From Microthyrium microscopicum (Eukaryota > Ascomycota > Dothideomycetes > Microthyriales > Microthyriaceae), in contig MU004234.1 in the NCBI GenBank assembly GCA_010405405.1, positions 1,135,563 through 1,199,562 on the forward strand: a stretch of 64,000 nt of DNA, in the 5' to 3' direction. How positions within the stretch are numbered: position 1 is the stretch's first letter; each line of letters starts with the position of its first letter. Below the pieces are notes generated by a model that saw only the letters and a list, made by a program, of their open reading frames with translations, did not search any database and was not told the origin of the DNA. Positions 1,836 to 56,614 of the stretch are shown here, one piece after another. The position numbers and the translations under genes were made by a program.

Positions 1836-2011
1836 ATAACTTATAGTAAGTACTAAGAAATAGGAAATATACGTATTATTAGCTACTAAAATACTAGTTA
1901 ATAGCTTATAATAAGAGCTTTATTTAAGGTAATCTTTACTACGCTAGGGAGTATATATTTATAGTTAATATATTAGTTTACTATTAGGCATTAAGGAGGT
2001 TTTAGTAGTAG

Positions 2012-3140
2012 TATTTAGAAGGAAGATATAGTCTTATATTGTGTAAATAATACTATTAGAAGAATACTAGCAAGTAGACTTTTAGTAGCAATCTTTAAAG
2101 AGTAAGATATATTCTTATATTATATAAATAATACTATTAGAAGAAGGCTAGTAAGTAGACTTTTAGTAATAGTCTTTAGGGAGTAAGATATAGTCTTATA
2201 TTATATAAATAATACTATTAGAAGAATGCTAGTAAGTAGACTTTTAGTAGTAATCTTTAGGGAGTAAGATATATTCTTATATTATATAAATAATACTATT
2301 AGAAGAAAGCTAGCAAGTAGACTTTTGGCAGTAGTCTTTAGGAAGTAAGATATAGTCTTATATTATATAAATAATACTATTAGAAGAACGCTAATAAGTA
2401 AACTTTTGGCAGCAATCTTTAGGAAGTAAGATATATTCTTATATTATGTAAATAATACTATTAGAAGAAGGCTAGTAAGTAGACTTTTAGTAGTAGTTTT
2501 TAAGGAGCAAGATATAGTCTTATATTATATAAATAATACTATTAGAAGAAGGCTAGTAAGTAGATATTTAGTAATAGTCTTTAGAGAGGGATATAATAGT
2601 GTTTAGCGTAGCGAATCATATTCTTAGAATAAAGCTAGTAAGCGAATTTTGGTAATAGTCTTTAGGGAGAGATATAATAGTATTTAGCGTAGCAAATTAT
2701 ATTCTTAGAATGAAGCTAGCAAGCGGATTTTGGCGATAGTCTTTAGGGAGGGATATAATAGTATTTAGCGTAGTGAATCATATTCTTAGAATAAAGCTAG
2801 TAAGTAGATTTTGGTAACAGTCTTTAGGGAGGGATATAATAGTATTTAGCGTAGCGAATTATATTCTTGGAATGAAGCTAGCGAGCGGATTTTTGACGAT
2901 AGTCTTTAGGGAGGGATATATAGTATTTAGCGCGCGAATCGTGTTCTTGGAATGAAGCTAGCAAGCGGATTTTTGGCAGTAGTCTTTAGGGAGGGATGTA
3001 TGGTATTTAGCGCGTGAATTGTGTTTTTAGAATAAAGTTAGTAAGTGGATTTTTGGTGGTAGTCTTTAGGAAGGAATGTATAGTATTTAGTATGTAAATT
3101 ATACTCTTGGAATAAAGCTAGTAAGTAAACTTTAAGAAAG
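2012..3140. repeat. Tandem array, 81 bp units, about 13-14 copies
   Basis: The word ctttaggga(g) and its variants start at about 2093, 2174, 2255, 2336, 2417, 2498, 2579, 2660, 2741, 2822, 2904, 2984 and 3064. Spacing is 81, with 82, 80 and 80 at the end; a weaker copy begins near 2012. A left subfamily (units with tcttatatta) switches at about 2579 to a right subfamily (units with gtatttagcg). Differences between units are mostly transitions. The rightmost units (2,880-3,060) keep more GC and CpG. The period is a multiple of three, so a coding origin is possible. Confidence 0.9.
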
Positions 3141-33553: not shown

Positions 33554-33628
33554 AGCTATCCGTGGACAACACCCACCGCCGTAGGCGGTGGGGGACGCCT
33601 GAACGCTACGGATAGCTAAACGCTACAT
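33554..33628 (+). repeat. Left terminal inverted repeat
   Basis: Starts agctatccgtggacaacacc and has internal symmetry. Its first ten bases return as the reverse complement acggatagct about 64 bp in. A 9-bp perfect hairpin (cccaccgcc, loop gta, ggcggtggg) lies between. The word acgctac is repeated twice in the inner part, a possible transposase-binding repeat. Confidence 0.9.
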
Positions 33629-36330
33629 GTTATAAATACTATATATTTCAATAATAATTACCTAATAAATAATTCTTAAAATAATAGTGCTATTAGATTT
33701 ATTACTTTTCTATATCTTATAAAATTTTTACGCGCTTTTAATAAGAATTATAATATTAGCTATATAGAACAATACTAATTTAGGATATATCTTAAGATAG
33801 TTTTTTTAGCTAGGTTATAGCTAATTTTACTATAATAGATATTTTTTAAATCTAAAAAAGGAAGCATAAATAGTAAGTAATAAATTATATATAGTATTAG
33901 TTTAATAAATATTTATTATATTTTAAATAATTAATATTAAGTTAAAATTACTTAGGTTAAAAGATATTATTATTATGCTTTACTAAGATTTTACGTTTAT
34001 AGGCTAAATTTATAACTATAATGCGTCCTAGCTCTTTATATTAGAAAGATAAATTACTAAATCTACTACTACTTTTATAATACTAAACTAAAAATAATTT
34101 TATAATAAAGCTTATATATTAGTAAGAAGAGATACTTCTAGAGAGTATAATTTTATACTTATCTACTAATCTAAAGATACTTTACTATACTATAGAAAGA
34201 ATATTTAAACTACTTAAAAAAGATTAAATTTAATACTAATTCCTTAATCTCTAAGGCTCTAAATTAAAGCGTACTATAAATAACTAAAGGCTAAATAATA
34301 TTTAAGATAAAGCACTATATAATTACTTTCTTAAACTCTCTAAAATTAGTATTCCTCTATAATTTAAATACTTTTAAGATACTACTAATAATATTCTTTA
34401 CTATAGTATATTACTAAATACTTTAAATCCTTTTTCTATAGGCTAAAAGTAGCCTAGACGCTTTATAAAACTATACTTATAGTTTAAGATTATAAAGTAA
34501 GAATCTTTTAAGGTTACTTATTAAAAGGCTATAAACTATAGTAATATTAAAGCTTTTATATAGAAATATAAATAGACTATTAATTAATATAAAATATAGC
34601 TTATAGATACTTAGAATATAAATAAAATAGGTATTAAAATAGGTATTAGTAAAGATTAGTAGGTAATAGTTCCTATAGGTAAAGAATATAGTTATTTTAA
34701 CTACTATATTTAGAGCTTTAGAGAGAAGAAGAATATTACTATTATAGAGAGCGTATTTATAGTTAAATATATAATTAGTCTTATAATTATTACTAAAGGC
34801 TAGATAATCTAAGAGTAGTAGTTTTATAAAGTTAAAGATAAAAATCTAGCTATTAGTAAGAAGCTTTTTTATTTATATTAATAACTTACTAATTTTATAC
34901 TATAAAAATATTAAAATTAGGTTATTTAAATAATATTCTTAGATTCTTATAGATATAATATTTTAATTAATTATTAGCTTAAACTTAGTAAGGAGAGTAT
35001 AGATTACTACTCCTTAATAGCTATAAGAGCTATTTAATATATTTCTTTACCCTCTTTTATAACGCGCGTAAGATTATAATTCTTTAACTACTACTATATA
35101 CTATATACTTCTTATAATCTCTAAATATTATAATCTTTTAGTAATAAAAGCATTTTTATACTAAATACCTTAATAAAGCTCTATAAGCTAGATTAAGTAA
35201 ATTTAATAAGTAAACCTTCTTTATTACTATTAAATCTATAAGACGTAAAGTTATAAAGCTAAATTCTATTAAATCTAGCTTTAAGTATTATAGTTTTTAG
35301 CCTTTTAAACTATTAGAGATACTATAATATTTACTTATAGATCTACTAAATCTTTATATTTTATAAGACTAGAATAATATTAAAGAAAGTAAAGATAAAG
35401 AGAAATTATCTACTAAATAGCATACTCTTTTAAATCTATAAAAACTTTATTAGTAATTATCTTAAGTACTTAACTACCTAAGATCCTCTCCTATACTACT
35501 AAATATACTAATATATATATACTAAAGATTAAACTTCTAAGCTCTATAGTAAAGAATCCTTATATAGAATAATCTTTATTTAATCTTCTTAGAGTTTTAT
35601 TATAACTCTTATCTTACCTATATATATTAGAATAGATGTAACTAAGCTTAGGTTAACTTTGTTTAATAGAGAAGTATAGTTTATACTAATAATATTTCTT
35701 CTTTTTATAATATTAATACTTTAGAGCCTATTTTAGTTAAATAATAGGCTTAGAATAATAATCTATATTAAAAAATATAGAGATTACTACTATATTACTT
35801 AGTAATTCTATAGCTACTTTAAATAATACTTAGTAAGTACTTATAACTTACCTATAAAGTAAACTAGCTTTAAAATAAAGCTAAATGTAAAGAAATTAAT
35901 AAGTTAAAGTAGTATAATACTATAATTAAGAACTAGAAGTAAGAAGTTAAAGAGGTTACTTATGCATATATACTTCTATAAGTAGTAGAATATATAAGTC
36001 TATAGTTATAATTTAGAATAGATATAAATATACTTCTTACTAATTTATAAGCTATATTTAATAAGAATATAGATTAAGAGATAATATACTATATACTACT
36101 ATATTTTTATTTTAGACTAGATAATAATAAGTTATAAGAGTAAATTTAAAGAATTACTACCTTAGAATTAATCTTAATCTTAATTTTATTACTATATTAT
36201 AAATTTCTTAAACCTTAATATTTTTCTTTTAAAATAAAATATATAATAGATATAATACGTTTTAAATACCTTCTAAATTTTTATTAAATAATATTACGTA
36301 GTTATTAGATAGCTATAGTGTAGATAAAAT

Positions 36331-36405
36331 ATGTAGCGTTTAGCTATCCGTAGCGTTTAGGCGTCCCCCACCGCCTATGGCGGTGGGTGTTGTCCACGGA
36401 TAGCT
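36331..36405 (-). repeat. Right terminal inverted repeat
   Basis: Reverse complement of the left end with two differences. The same hairpin is present with loop ata instead of gta. Inside this point similarity to the left end continues weakly for about 15 bp, then is lost in AT-rich DNA. Confidence 0.9.
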
Positions 36406-45828: not shown

Positions 45829-47459
45829 ATGAAGACAGCAGTGGCGTTGTTCCTTGTGGGACAAGCCTTGGGTAATATCAATGCTAATCCAATCCATTCT
45901 CCTGGTAAGCTTAACCCCATCTGATTGTTGCTGGATTATCTCGTGCCTGCAGCAGGAAGTGTAATACAAACTGCAAATCACGTTGTCACTGGTGGTGTGA
46001 GGATACATGGTGCTCAATTTGGCTAATGCGACAAATTGTAGGGAACCCAATATTGGGAGATGGGACTTATTACTCCGCTGATCCAGCACCATTCGTTCAC
46101 AATGGTAGTCTCTATATAGTCGCTGGGAGAGACCAAGCTGCCCCAATGCAGAATGATTTCGTCATGAACGAATGGCAAATCTTCAAGACTGACGACCCAG
46201 CTACGAATGACTGGATTCACTATCCAGCAATTGCCAAGTCAAACACACTTTTCAAGTGGGCAGCACCAGGAAGAGCATACGCGGCTCAATTGGTTCCTGG
46301 AAAAGATGGAAAATTTTACCTGTATGCGCCAGTGTCACAAGCACGATCGAGCAGCAAGGATCCATTCGGAGTTGGTGTTGGTGTATCGAACAGTCCTGTT
46401 GGGCCTTTTACAGATTTACATCCAGCGGGACCCATCGTCTCTCAAACATCGCCGCCACCTGGAAATGATATCCAGAACATTGACCCAACTGTCCTCATCG
46501 ACGATGATGGTCGTGTGTACATGTACTACGGAACCTTTGGACGCCTCAAGGGAGTGGAACTTCAAAAGGATATGATCACACCAATCGGTCGCAGTAAAGA
46601 CTACGGCCTACCTGGTTTCTTTGAGGCGGCTTGGTTAATGAAGCGTAAAGGAACATATTATCTGGTGTACGCTGCAAACAATGCTGGACCCACGTCGCCA
46701 TGTACACCAACTTCTTACCACGCATGCCAGGCATATGCCACAGCGTCTTCTCCTCTTGGGCCCTGGACGTTCCGCGGAGTAATGCTCGATGTCGTTACAA
46801 GCACAACTAGTCATGCTGGCGCTGTAGAGTTCAAAGGCCAGTGGTATTTTGCTTACCATACCGCCGAAGCAGTTGGTAGCACTCACTTTCGACGCAGTGT
46901 CGCGATTGACAAACTGGAGTTTGATGACACCAAGACTCCACCACTCATCAAAAAGGTCCGAACGACACATCGCCCTAAAGCACAGGTGTCAACTCGCAAT
47001 GTGGCACTCAAAGCCAAAGCATCCAGCTCTCGTCCGGTTCCAATCCAGTATTGGGTGAAGGCATTGAATGATGGTCGGATACCCGCCTCTCCTTTACCGC
47101 CGGACTACTGGAGCTCCTACGATGGAGATCGGTCACCAGCAACCAGTACTTTGACATATGAGTGGTCTTCTCCAGTGTCAATCAGTGGTACGAGAATGGC
47201 TTTCTTCGCAGATCAGCGAGCAGGGTCTAGCATTGGGGTCGCACCACCAGCAGAATGGCATCTCGAGTATCAAAGTGGCGGTTCATGGACTAGAATTGCG
47301 GCGACGTATTCAAATGCAGTCTCCGATAATCCGCCCGAAATCAAGTTCCCAGCCGTGAATGCTCAGGCAGTCAGAGCGGTTTTGACTGCCAGTGGACAAG
47401 GCAAACATGCTGGTATTGGAATTAAAGAATGGGAGGTGTTGGCTGCAGGAGCGGCTTAG
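45829..47459 (+). CDS. Secreted GH43 glycosidase with C-terminal beta-sandwich
   Basis: Five-bladed propeller hydrolase of family 43 (arabinofuranosidase/xylosidase type) acting on hemicellulose side chains. Exons 45829-45904, 45953-45994 and 46042-47459 give 511 residues. The 42-nt second exon is tiny and its acceptor has a NAG choice three bases apart. A signal peptide is visible (MKTAVALFLVGQALG). The catalytic triad reads as Asp53 (base, in YYSADPAPF), Asp187 (in NIDPTVLIDDDG) and Glu234 (acid, in GFFEAAWLMK). Residues about 330-511 form a second module (RNVALKAKASSS to IKEWEVL) resembling a galactose-binding or F5/8-type sandwich that may bind carbohydrate. The substrate cannot be read from sequence. 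It follows the glycosyltransferase on the same strand. Confidence 0.87.
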
Positions 47460-48218
47460 ATTTGTCTTTGTTATGGTGTAGAAGCCTTGTTAATGAATAT
47501 ACATTTGATATATGATTTCAAAAGTTGACCACATAAGGATTTAATGAGCATATAAAATGTGTCCCGGATTTGACAAGTAACAACCCCCACGTTTACAGCT
47601 ACTACGAAGCGACAAAGGCCTGTCAGCACTAATCAGTAGTGATCTTTTCGATAGAACCATTGAATGTCGCAAGAAATAGGTGGCAATGATGCGAACGTAT
47701 GTGATAATCAACCTTCTTGTAAACATAGCAACATCTTCTCGTTGTGCCTTCTGGAAGTCAAAATCATGAGATTCTTATACGGCAAATCGAATCTGAGCAT
47801 CCAATGACAATCGCTTGTTTCCTAAATCCCGGTGGTTGGGGATTCCGGGAATTAGATAAATCACCGCACGCATCACCCCCAAAGCCGGATCCAGAACCGG
47901 ATCCAGACCAGACAATCGGATTTGGAAGCAAAGCCTGAACATCCTACTTCAGCTAAAAGGTACGTAAAACCTAAAGCCGGAGAAGGACGCCAATAATAAT
48001 AGAAATTGTAAAGCTAACCCATATCTTGGATCAAGCGGTTCGCGTCATCCATGCAACAATGTTTGGTGATAGACCAATGGGCAGTTCTCATGGGACGCTA
48101 CTCATGCATTACCACCGCCCAAGCAGCACATCATGCACGGATTACATTCTTTATCTTGGCTGCCTCTGCTGCTACGGTACAGGATGAATTTCTTTGAATC
48201 TCAATCTTCGTTTCCATC
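47460..48218. other. Intergenic region before the Atg22-like gene
   Basis: About 760 bp. A short direct repeat ccggatccaga occurs twice near 47,884-47,906. A pyrimidine-rich stretch (ctttatcttggctgcctctg) precedes the start codon. Otherwise nothing recognised. Confidence 0.4.
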
Positions 48219-49962
48219 ATGTCGGTTGCCAATGCTGGTCCGATCGCTGCGAGCGAACCTCCACCCGTTGAGGAGCATACTCCAGGTCAAAACGACCTAG
48301 TAGAAACATTGAGCGAGGACCGGCCTATTGCTCCCGACCAATTCGATCCAAGGTACGAAACGACAAAGTGGGAGATATGGAGCTATTACAGTTACTATGT
48401 TGGCAATAACGGTCTCAGTTTGTTCAACTTTGCGCCTACATCTTTTCAGGATCTTTTATATGAAGCTGCGGGCGATCCTGGAGTCTTAAAATTCCTGGGA
48501 AGAGATCGCACTATCAACTCCATTGTGTTGCTAGCCAATGGCATTTCATTCGCCATTCAGGTAGTTCTGTTTCTCGTCATTGGCAGTTTTGCGGATTATG
48601 GTACCTGGCGACCATATATCTTGGTGTTCTGGTCCGTCGTGGCTTTTGCAATTGGCTTTGGGTGGCTCGGAGTACACACTGCAGACAAATGGCCAGTAGC
48701 TACAGGCCTGTATATGGTCGGATTGATCGCATATCAGATGTGTATTACATTTTGGACTGCGGCGTTCCCAGGTCTGGCCAGAAATACTGTTGAAATGCGA
48801 GAGAAAGCCGAACAATATGAGGCTGGAGCAATCGACAGAGACAAGTACGACTACGCAGATATGATGATGCGAAATCGGTTGCAAAACGTGGCGTTTATCA
48901 TGCAATCACTAGGAGAAATCGTGATTCTGGCGATTCTAGTAGGCATACTTTTCGCTGTAAACGTCAACGCAAGTGCTGCAAACAATCTCTGGGGCTTGTC
49001 AGTACTCATTGCATATGCCTCAGCAGTCTGGCTAGTTCTGGCACTCCCATGGTTCTGGTTCGAAAAGCATCGACCCGGCCAGCCGCTTCCTCCTGGTATG
49101 AACATTGTCAGTGTTGGATTCTGGCAGCTGTATCGAGCATTTACTCAAATATGGCGACTTAAGCAAACGCTGATATACCTCATTGGTTAGTTCAAAAATA
49201 GCTTGTCTCATCTTGCTAAGCTAACATTCTTGACTTTAGGTTATTTTCTTCTTGGCGATTCGCTGAATACCACTGTCACTGTCATTGCAACTTTACAGAA
49301 CACCGTTGTAGCATACAACACCCTTACTTTGACTTATCTTTTCATCGTGGGAATAACCGCACAATTAGCAGGTATATGGGGATTCTGGACTATACAAAAG
49401 CGCTTTCATCTTTCGACCAAAACCATGTTTGACTTCATCATGGTTGGAATCATTCTGCTTGATGGATGGGGTATGATTGGAATTTGGACTAATAAGTTCG
49501 GATTTCATCACGAATGGGAGTTCTGGGTGTACCAAGTATGTCCACTCAACTATGTGAAAGCTCAGTCTAACGATTTCCTAGGTCTGGTACGGTTTATTCG
49601 TGTGCCCTTGGTACTCGTACTCCCAGATCATGATCAGCGAAGTGACTCCTCGAGGGAAAGAGTTTTTGTTCTTTGCTCTGTTCAGCATTATGGGAAAGAC
49701 GAGTGCTTTCATTGGTCCTATCGTTAGCAGCGCCATTATCGACGCCAGTAGCGACGGGAACAACAGTCTTCCGTTCTACTTCTTGTTTGGATTGAGTTTG
49801 CTGAGTTTCTTACTGCTCGCTTTCTTCGTCAATCTAAAGAAGAGTCGCCAAGAACAAGAAGTATTTCTTGCCGAAGAGAGAGCTATCAAGGAGCGAAGAG
49901 CTAGTGTTGTCAGTCAAGGCGAAGTCATTTCTGAGCCAATATCTAAAGGCCCGAAGATATGA
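48219..49962 (+). CDS. Atg22-like major facilitator transporter
   Basis: Vacuolar-type membrane transporter of the Atg22 family. Yeast Atg22 exports amino acids from the vacuole after autophagy; filamentous fungi carry several paralogues. Exons 48219-49185, 49240-49535 and 49582-49962 join in frame to 547 residues. Seen: a polar N-terminus of about 45 residues, then TTKWEIWSYYSYYVGNNG entering helix 1, FADYGTWRPYIL after the third hydrophobic run, about 12 hydrophobic segments in all, and VWYGLFVCPWYSYSQIMISE followed by EVTPRGKEFLFFALFSIMGK, a signature block of the family. The C-terminal tail of about 50 residues is charged and cytosolic. The 54- and 46-nt introns have clear donors. Paralogy means the ATG22 name is not secure. 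Confidence 0.88.
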
Positions 49963-53921: not shown

Positions 53922-56614
53922 TCACTCCACGATTCCAGTTGCCACTGTTGCTCCACGCTGTCGTAAAACAATCTTCCAGCCTGCCTCAATGGGCATTGGT
54001 CGATCCAAGCTGATCACGACACGACCGACGCTGCCCGGTGATAATCTACGTGGGTTCTTCTTCTCAATTTCGCCCGTAGTCTTGTCCAGCGATGCCACTA
54101 GCTTCTTGACTGTACCAGGTGCTGCGAATCGCCCGCGAAGCACTTCGACGATGCTTGGCATGATGAACTCAAAGGCGAGGATTTTGACTGTGACCTCCGT
54201 CAACATGGGAATGGGGTCCTTGGCCGAACAAACAATATCGCCGCGCTTGATGTCCTCCGCGCTGGCTGTGACCAAGCTTAGCTTGACCATTTGGCCGGCA
54301 ACAGCCCACTCAGCAGGTTCCCAGTCAGCTTCAATGACTTTGATCGTGGCGAGCTCGTTTCCAGGACGTGCAATAATTTGGTCGCCGACTTGCAGAGAGC
54401 CCGAGTCAATCTTGCCGCTGATGGTCATGTCGGAGCCGTGCACACTGTTGCTGACCTCGGAAACCACCATACGAAGTGCCTTTTCGATGGCACGATTCTT
54501 GGAGTCGCCTTTCTCTAGCTCTTCGATGAGCGTTGGGCCAGTATACCACTTGGCTTCAGGCGCGGTAATGCGCATGAGCACATTCTCTCCTGATAGGCCT
54601 GCGCAAGGGATGTACCTCACGGACTTCGCCGAGAAGTTGGCGGTAGTCAAGAAGCCAGCCATGGCAGTCTTTATCTCTTCAAATCGCTCTTGCGACCAGT
54701 CAACTCTATCCATCTTGTTGACAGCGACAATGAGACGCGTTACTCCCATGCTTCTAACCAGAAGCGCGTGTTCCTTGGTCTGCCCTCTCAGCCCAGATTC
54801 AAAGCTGTTTATTCCAGCATCGATGACTAGCACTGCGAAGTCTGCTTGTTGCGCGCCAACGATCATATTTGGTATAAAGTCTTGATGTCCTGGAGCATCG
54901 AGGATGGTGAATCGAGTGGTTTCGGTTTCGAATGACTTTGTTGCCGTGTCCACCGTTATTCCTCGCGCACGTTCATCGGCGGACGTATCCATAACCCAGG
55001 CTAGAGCAAATGAACCCTTGCCAATAGCTTCTGATTCTTTCCGGAACTTTCGCATCGTGTTTTCGTCGACTGCTTTGGAATCGTAGAGTAATCGACCCAT
55101 GAGCGTGCTTTTGCCATGATCAACATGCCCTATGGAGTGTTCAGCATCGAGACAGGAAACTAGAGTTACCTGGGAAGTTAGAACTTACCGACAACGACAA
55201 AAGCCGCCGTCTTCTTCATTTTCGCATGTTGATATTCCTCTTCCACATTGAGATTTTTAGACACCACTCTGGATTTGCCTAACGAAAGCTGAGCCACGCT
55301 GTCCGAAAGTGTGCTCGCACTGTTGGAAGGCGAATGTGAGGGTGATAATTTTTGTGCTTTGCCTGTTGTAGATTGTACAGACCCTGAAACGCTACATTAG
55401 CTATGATCGAAACGTACTCTTGCTCTGTGCATTCAAAACGATGTCATCTGGGCTTGGTTTGGCAAACGGGTCCGCAGACTTGAAAGTCTCGCTTTCCGCG
55501 TATGGGAGATCAAAATTTTGCAATAAACGTTTTCTCTTCGTTGCGGTCGTGCCATCGGACGTAAGTGTGACACCTCCGGGCTCGCGTTTGGAACCGAACA
55601 AGACGTTCGCAAATATAGAGGGTTGACCTTTGACATCTTGATCTGGTTTGGCAGGAGTTGTATTTGGCAGTTCCAACTCGGACGCCGTCTGCTCAGGGGG
55701 CACTTGTATGGGTTTCGAAGGCTCTTTTCGAAAGGTCAGAGACACGGGAGCGGGAATGGGCGACTCCTGCTTATTGTGCAGTGATGACTTTGAGGGCGCG
55801 GTCTTGTTGACTAGTCGATCCAATAGACTGCTCTTTTCGCCAGAATCCATGGAATTTGAGCCACCTGCTTGCTTTGATTCGGCATCTCTCTTCTTTGCAG
55901 CCGCGAGCGCTGCCAATTTTGAGATTTTTGGAGCACCGCCGAGTAGACCACCACGCGGTATCATACTGAGATGCTCGAATGTCGACAGCCTTTCTTTAGG
56001 AATCGAACCCCAAGGAAAATCCCAAAACGGAGTCTGTGATGCGCCGATGCCAGAAAGGGAGGACTCCACGAAAGACAAACCAAAGACGTCTGAACAATCA
56101 GTCTCCAGCTTCACCAGAGGCAGAACCACTTGACAACCAGAGCTCACCAAGTCTAGCAAGAGAGTGATGAAGAAAAGACTTACCACTAATTTGTTCGTTG
56201 GCAGCTTTTGCAGGTGTATCGCCCGTTTGTTTCTTCTTCTTCTTAGATCCAGACTTGTTTGTCTTTCTGAGACCTGCCCCGTGATTAGCCTAGAAAGCAA
56301 AAAACACAAGACTATCGTACTTTTCAGGTGTGCAACCGACTGGTCAATATCATAGAAGAAATTCCAGAGAGCGTCACGAATTTCTCTATCTGTTACTGGA
56401 AAGTCTGAGCCCAGAGCTGCCTTGACTTTGAGTGTGCCTTCATGCATTTGCGCTTCGTCCTCAGGGCTGAGTTCTACATTTGTTAGTGACAAGGGCCGCG
56501 AAACTGTTAGGCTGGCAGAATACCTTCTTCTTGGTCTTCACTATAATACTCTTCGTCATCGAAGGTATCATCAAGATCGTCATACGCGACGTTCTTTGCT
56601 CGTGCGTAAGACAT
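53922..56614 (-). CDS. HBS1: Hbs1 ribosome-rescue GTPase with a Ski7-like segment
   Basis: eRF3/EF-1alpha-like GTPase that works with Dom34 to split stalled ribosomes in no-go and non-stop decay. Six exons: 56614-56524, 56473-56321, 56273-56184, 56089-55418, 55362-55189, 55129-53922. They give 795 residues, the usual fungal size. Exon 1 encodes the acidic start (MSYARAKNVAYDD). Exon 2 holds the Hbs1 N-domain (VTDREIRDALWNFFYDIDQSVAHLK). Exon 4 holds a linker with FWDFPWGSIPKERLS and RGGLLGGAPKISKLAALAA, resembling the exosome-binding Ski7 motif. The GTPase domain starts near residue 393: GHVDHGKST, RARGITVDT, DAPGHQD, NKMDRVD, then two beta-barrels. A large antisense open frame at 53989-54885 is a shadow of this domain. 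Confidence 0.93.

Follow-up and report, generated by a model that had tools for sequence, protein, structure and literature searches.

In Neurospora crassa and other Ascomycota, RIP acts on repeated DNA, changes C to T on both strands with a preference for CpA, and leaves the flanks of its targets normal. Experiments with Neurospora repeats may show fewer mutations near the repeat ends. Fot1/pogo-like transposons are characterized by a TA target duplication, inverted terminal repeats, and a transposase of the DDE_1 type. The locus described here, in Microthyrium microscopicum, shares these features of RIP, but mutation declines within the terminal ~100 bp of the repeat, and CpT is hit too. It also resembles Fot1/pogo-like transposons in its TA target duplication, its inverted terminal repeats, and a remnant related to DDE_1 transposases; it differs in that its ends carry a nested hairpin and in that no intact copy bearing these ends was found in the genome.

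In Zymoseptoria tritici, where RIP was likewise counted by position along transposons and did not leak into the flanks, new RIP mutations in LTR elements were most numerous in the distal windows (average window 71 bp), and class II elements showed no trend, according to passages of PMC10294615; for LTR elements this direction is opposite to the edge sparing found here. Passages of the RIPCAL paper (PMC2621366) describe a slight RIP excess at the ends of one Stagonospora family, and long non-tandem rDNA repeats that were more RIPed in their centre. Neurospora repeats as short as ~150 bp are apparently RIPable (passage of PMC10787394), which conflicts with an absolute 100-bp rim. No statement of an un-RIPed rim was found in the passages of open-licence literature covered, including those of PMC12543289, PMC7296669, PMC11969663, PMC10787394, PMC5496416, and PMC4352252. 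Within this limited literature search, the direction found here is not predicted by the published passages.

The window, that is, the whole stretch of 64,000 nucleotides analysed, corresponds to C5:1135563-1199562, and the genome searched comprises 36,878,185 bases in 20 contigs. Coordinates within the window are given without a contig name. The element and its copies are as follows:

33557-33558, no strand: left TA target-site duplication, target AGCTAGCT in copy A
33559-36400, + strand: element copy A, 2842 bp, RIP-decayed and apparently pogo/Fot1-like, one of four copies found
33559-33633, + strand: spared 5' end, terminal inverted repeat, CpA/CpG hits at 1/24 sites in copy A
33634-36325, + strand: RIP-saturated interior, CpA odds 0.07
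34054-35028, + strand: putative transposase-frame remnant, DDE_1-type (pogo/Fot1-like), 36 in-frame stops in copy A
36326-36400, - strand: spared 3' end, terminal inverted repeat
36401-36402, no strand: right TA target-site duplication
C1:1604806-1607654: copy B, the least mutated copy
C1:2104995-2107804: copy C
C1:2497243-2508872: copy D, split by an 8.8-kb LTR retrotransposon

Copy A runs exactly from TCCGTGGACAAC to GTTGTCCACGGA, with TA immediately outside each limit. All four copies have TA on both sides, start with TCCGTGGACAAC, and end in the inverted repeat, and TA adjoins TCCGTGG in 4/4. Since TA is present and AGC absent at the other three copies, the AGC/GCT outside copy A is target sequence. 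The ends of copy A are identical at 73 of 75 positions as inverted repeats, exactly as the preliminary description of the window had stated, and both differences are G/A. Positions 33554-33617 form a nested stem-loop with a hairpin core at 33572-33592, and the single-stranded DNA fold z of the two ends is -5.36 (5' end) and -4.92.

One frame of copy B, judged by eye, resembles a pogo/Fot1 transposase. In a tblastn comparison, the PF03184 transposase at C11:414673 of the same genome matched the frame over 92 residues (28%, E 4.5e-8), in the part that corresponds to 34525-34785 in copy A. A direct Pfam scan of 326 residues of copy B's broken frame returned 0 families, and the 5 places listed by a genome-wide PF03184 search did not include the element. 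From these features, the element appears to be a pogo/Fot1-like (Tc1/mariner superfamily) DNA transposon inactivated by RIP. The locus L065 (C11:414673-415197) is itself pogo-like, with 46-bp inverted ends, near-normal CpA density, and a PF03184 stretch with two in-frame stops; this element may have arrived recently or as a single copy.

Elsewhere in the window, positions 1-20100 form an AT-rich 20-kb block (GC 0.24, CpA odds 0.17) that gives way to normal DNA somewhere between 20001 and 20101; it contains tandem arrays of ~81-84-bp units at 1294-1860 and 2000-3133. The following genes were also located:

45915-47459, + strand: family 43 glycosidase gene
48198-49190, + strand: Atg22-like transporter gene
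53922-55184, - strand: EF-Tu-type GTPase gene

The base composition of copy A bears out the earlier claim of a RIP-decayed mobile element with spared ends. The inner 2703 bp have a GC content of 0.186, 15 CpA+TpG in total, and CpA odds of 0.07, versus 1.14 and 1.15 in the flanks, while each 75-bp end has a GC content of 0.57-0.60, 7 CpA+TpG, and CpA odds of 0.77 and 0.79. A natively AT-rich interior lacking CpA-specific depletion had been named as one finding that would refute the observation. The interior odds of the other dinucleotides are 2.04 (CpT), 0.92 (CpC), and 0.55 (CpG), so the depletion is specific to CpA and the interior is not merely AT-rich. In the 50-bp profile proposed at that time, flanking bins contain 2-11 CpA+TpG each; going inward from the two edges of the element, the first bins contain 6 and 7, the second 3 and 2, and deeper ones 0-2.

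The genome search for further copies of the end, also proposed earlier, added three copies, with a graded loss of CpA from the edge. As a query, the end found at least 8 places, corresponding to four copies with two ends each; the interior gave at least 22 matches, five of them long, and these five combined with the 8 ends account for the four copies. All of them have the same junction between end and interior. They differ pairwise by 214-335 transitions and 2-8 transversions, and the first 75 bp outside them on either side contain 12.0-17.3 CpA+TpG per 100 bp. CpA-specific C-to-T change on both strands of repeated DNA marks the element as a RIP target. RIP also relies on a RID-type DNA methyltransferase and takes place in the sexual cycle. 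The genome has six matches above the cut-off to PF00145 (DNA methyltransferase family), a family-level match that does not tell RID and DIM-2 apart, at four loci without stops:

C4:211754, C3:734392, C4:1144994, and C6:1013331: PF00145 loci in open frames, one of them in a 2126-aa frame

At sites kept in copy B, CpT hits private to one copy number 35 in A, 43 in C, and 22 in D, and these many private hits indicate that mutation went on after the copies had separated. Where B keeps the site, hits common to A, C, and D exceed expectation (CpA 87 vs 77.7, CpG 44 vs 27.0, CpT 7 vs 1.6); independence of the hits is thus approximate, and rate heterogeneity or some shared history exists. Two structural variants were seen at the 5' ends. 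In copy C (L031, C1:2103995-2108804), a 19-bp deletion in the terminal repeat takes out the hairpin core, and in copy D (L032) the hairpin loop reads TAC, not GTA, as though flipped. These variants suggest that the hairpin may be able to extrude or slip.

To compare ends and interior, sites known from any other copy were called kept or mutated in each copy (leave-one-out). CpA hits in ends versus interior were 4/18 vs 107/114 in copy A, 2/17 vs 11/29 in B, 4/15 vs 105/113 in C, and 6/18 vs 94/110 in D, which in A, C, and D corresponds to a CpA loss of 85-94% inside and 22-33% in the 75-bp ends. The ends had been called nearly untouched; they do carry far fewer hits than the interior, but the counts just given show that their CpA sites are mutated too. 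For CpA and CpG together, the values are 5/49 vs 208/248 (A), 5/48 vs 25/117 (B), 5/41 vs 189/237 (C), and 8/49 vs 159/236 (D), the share of hit end sites being 10-16% in A, C, and D. Fisher tests on CpA/CpG, in an alignment with one extra column, gave 1.5e-23 for A, 7.5e-17 for C, and 4e-11 for D; the contrast in copy B has the same direction and is not significant (p 0.12). Ends as decayed as interiors, which had been expected in other copies if the observation were spurious, are thus absent from C and D. Sites in CpC and CpT follow the same pattern. In the ends, 0/39, 0/39, 0/33, and 0/40 were hit in A, B, C, and D (together 0/151), and inside 112/570, 54/563, 119/566, and 90/569 (together 375/2268). 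Since CpT is hit at 9-21% of interior sites per copy and these hits also avoid the ends, either RIP is broader than CpA here or a second activity has the same targets. In all 1256 scorable overlapping 76-bp windows of the interior, the CpA rate exceeded that of the ends; for CpA+CpG, 10 of 2474 windows were as low.

The hit rate rises toward the interior. Pooled over copies A, C, and D, CpA was hit at 1/18 sites within 0-15 bp, 2/10 at 15-36, 6/11 at 36-56, 5/12 at 56-75, 13/17 at 75-100, and 10/13 at 100-150 bp; none were scored at 150-200 bp, and the values were 30/32 at 200-300, 64/69 at 300-500, and 189/206 beyond. The rate therefore starts at ~6% within 15 bp of the edge and reaches ~92% past 200 bp, with some noise (after 6/11 at 36-56 bp, CpA dips to 5/12 at 56-75 bp, and the 150-200 bp bin has 0/12 for CpA+CpG). 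The contrast between a decayed interior and clean ends is real, but by hit rate per CpA site its seemingly sharp boundary is not a step; it is a ramp that runs over the GC-rich terminal repeat. Mutations that arose after the copies separated shun the ends. The GC-rich ends did not move onto an already decayed interior, as had been proposed; the junction common to the four copies and the avoidance of the ends after separation rule this out.

An LTR retrotransposon inside copy D (C1:2497868-2506645, L032/L033), with 268-bp LTRs and a GATAC duplication, provided a comparison in an unrelated family. Its members have TGT...ACA ends and 5-bp duplications, namely GATAC in copy D and AAGGC at L049/L052. 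The family comprises 10 to 13 elements with two LTRs, and L043, which has ATAAA on both sides, is apparently a solo LTR. With the LTR as a genome query, 31 places were found; the alignment, 268 columns wide like the LTR itself, includes 30 of them. Twenty-six LTRs form 13 pairs, 10 strict (~8.5 kb apart) and 3 less certain (16-32 kb apart); L037, L042, L043, and L054 were left unpaired. The LTRs of one element are taken as identical at insertion, and the outward-facing parts are the left of the 5' LTR and the right of the 3' LTR, so that each stretch can be compared with its mirror copy facing inward.

Among CpA/CpG sites differing within a pair, C was kept on the outer versus the inner side at 68:9 in the left 75 bp, 59:8 in the right 75 bp, and 19:17 in the middle, and the outer 75 bp retained more CpA/CpG in 13/13 pairs on both sides. 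The 10 strict pairs alone gave 58:4 (left), 47:5 (right), and 16:14 (middle), and for CpC/CpT 36:7 (left) and 28:9 (right). By distance from the edge, the outer:inner ratio was 18:0 at 0-10 bp, 27:2 at 10-25, 30:9 at 25-50, 52:6 at 50-75, 17:8 at 75-100, and 6:5 at 100-134. A permutation over 28 labelled LTRs gave p 0.0005. As this comparison holds sequence, structure, and selection constant, the distance from the repeat edge matters, and the LTR family has an edge effect like that of the transposon.

On average, this effect is weaker than that of the element: over labelled LTRs, the outer 75 bp were hit at 117/219 and 123/210 sites and the inner at 203/253 and 156/182. In the single pair with normal flanks, the 5' LTR was hit at 3/17 sites in its outer 75 bp and the 3' LTR at 17/17 in the same stretch; on the other side, the values were 9/14 (outer) and 14/14 (inner). 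The element ends resemble the cleanest of these edges (3/17) and are hit less than the other edge of that pair. The other 12 pairs, whose outer flanks are AT-rich (GC 0.13-0.32 over 150 bp where measured, L058 excepted), gave 54:9 and 54:8, and the AT-rich, probably repeatedly RIPed surroundings of most LTR elements may blur their edges. Within copy D, where the LTR edge abuts another RIPed repeat, TGTCAGG is kept. On the transposon side of this insertion there is no edge effect (CpA/CpG hits in D to the two sides of it are 4/6 and 6/9 over the nearest 75 bp, then 1/4 and 10/15 over the following 75 bp), and none would be expected if the LTR element inserted after RIP.

A third family, a 1.8-kb pogo-like element whose ends measure 46 bp, is represented by two copies. 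CpA/CpG hits in the terminal 50 bp and farther inside were 5/13 and 112/163 in the more mutated copy, and 1/9 and 20/71 in the other. At CpC/CpT sites, the more mutated copy showed no edge effect (4/36 in the terminal 50 bp, 34/331 farther inside). Two pieces taken from the LTR element and the third family had no BLAST match in the window at 1e-10.

We consider it very probable, from the sequences of this one genome, that a pogo/Fot1-like transposon was killed by RIP and that RIP fades toward repeat ends. The edge effect appears to be general in this genome, reaching ~75-100 bp into the LTRs and 100-200 bp into the element, where the chance of CpA mutation would climb from ~6% over the first 15 bp to a plateau 100-200 bp inside. 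If RIP fades near repeat ends, the tips would stay nearly clean and the flanks would look unmutated. The cause we infer is the end of shared homology: either pairing between copies would be incomplete near that end, or the mutating complex would need paired DNA on both sides. Incomplete pairing at the homology end is favoured because the edge effect persists beside other RIPed DNA. Of the explanations offered in the preliminary description, ends too short or too divergent for homology recognition came nearest in spirit, though distance from the repeat end is what matters; and its view that the locus constrains how RIP picks its targets is supported.

The main mechanistic alternative is that the edge of a chromatin domain, not of homology, sets the limit, with RIP or a heterochromatin-dependent branch of it stopping short of the last half-nucleosome. 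Half a nucleosome is ~75 bp, close to the 75-100 bp reach in LTRs, but the 12 pairs whose outer flanks are AT-rich and presumably heterochromatic show the effect as well, and so does the place where the LTR in copy D meets another RIPed repeat; as this argument depends on the order of events, it is not decisive. We regard the chromatin limit as doubtful, albeit with an appreciable chance; it is a variant of the main explanation that retains the edge effect, and the confidence placed in the two overlaps. Shielding of the ends by a bound protein (transposase or host factor) or by hairpin or cruciform extrusion, alone or on top of the edge effect, is unlikely. A strong nested stem-loop at each end and the lower hit share of the element ends relative to the average outer LTR edge speak for it; against it stand the LTR edges spared in 13/13 pairs at constant sequence, the graded CpA hit rate, and the 5' end of copy C, which lacks the 19-bp core and is still spared (2/17 sites hit, versus 1/17, 2/17, and 1/17 at the matching positions in A, B, and D), an argument whose weight depends on the date of the core loss. 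Because LTR edges and this hairpin-less end are spared, hairpin ends are not required, and hairpin protection as the sole cause was set aside. The protection proposed earlier may at most contribute: the element requires no protection different in kind, and in degree these particular ends may add some effect.

It is also conceivable, but very improbable, that RIP itself is uniform and only copies with intact ends could move. The founder may have been decayed when it spread (32/36 stop positions are common to the four copies), and intact ends would then have been needed for moving, but mutations younger than the common ancestor also avoid the ends (CpC/CpT 0/151 vs 375/2268), and such selection cannot produce the mirror pattern of the LTR test, which compares two ends of one insertion. 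Mobility selection, though not the sole cause, may add to the pattern. Equally remote is an effect of composition, with GC-rich ends (GC ~0.60) a poor substrate for RIP and the AT-rich interior (0.305 in the four-copy union) a good one: whether one and the same LTR sequence is hit depends on the side that faces outward, which for LTRs speaks against composition.

The state of the founder can be judged from the 325-codon frame, in which 36 positions are a stop in at least one copy and 32 in all four (36 stops in A, 36 in C, 35 in D, and 32 in B), and in which copy B still has 40 CpA+TpG. Under independent RIP, the chance that B would have at least 32 of 36 stops is 0.009, 0.028, or 0.063 for an ancestor with 14, 16, or 18 CpA per 100 bp, 14 being taken as the normal density. 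The leave-one-out rates of copy B (CpA 11/29, CpG 14/77) suggest few hits since the split, and its CpT rate (44/471 vs 79/443 in A) suggests about half the RIP dose of A; hot and cold sites bias such dose estimates. On balance, a founder that was already RIPed and then moved in trans seems somewhat favoured, an estimate weakened by site-to-site rate differences. More tentatively, and at slightly below even confidence, RIP may need homology on both sides of the target base over at least 75-100 bp, which would leave an un-RIPed rim; terminal repeats shorter than 80 bp would lie inside it, and RIP would kill the genes of an element that could still be moved in trans. The four-copy family may be an example of such a RIP-dead yet trans-movable element.

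The locus and the LTR family offer a natural, sequence-controlled measure of how near a repeat end RIP acts, and they directly constrain models in which homology is recognized without recombination. The comparison of 5' and 3' LTRs is usable in any RIP-active genome, and it carries a warning that RIP indices averaged over elements conceal a rim. For the elements themselves, terminal repeats may outlive RIP, and dead elements could, as a possible though unproven consequence, move in trans.
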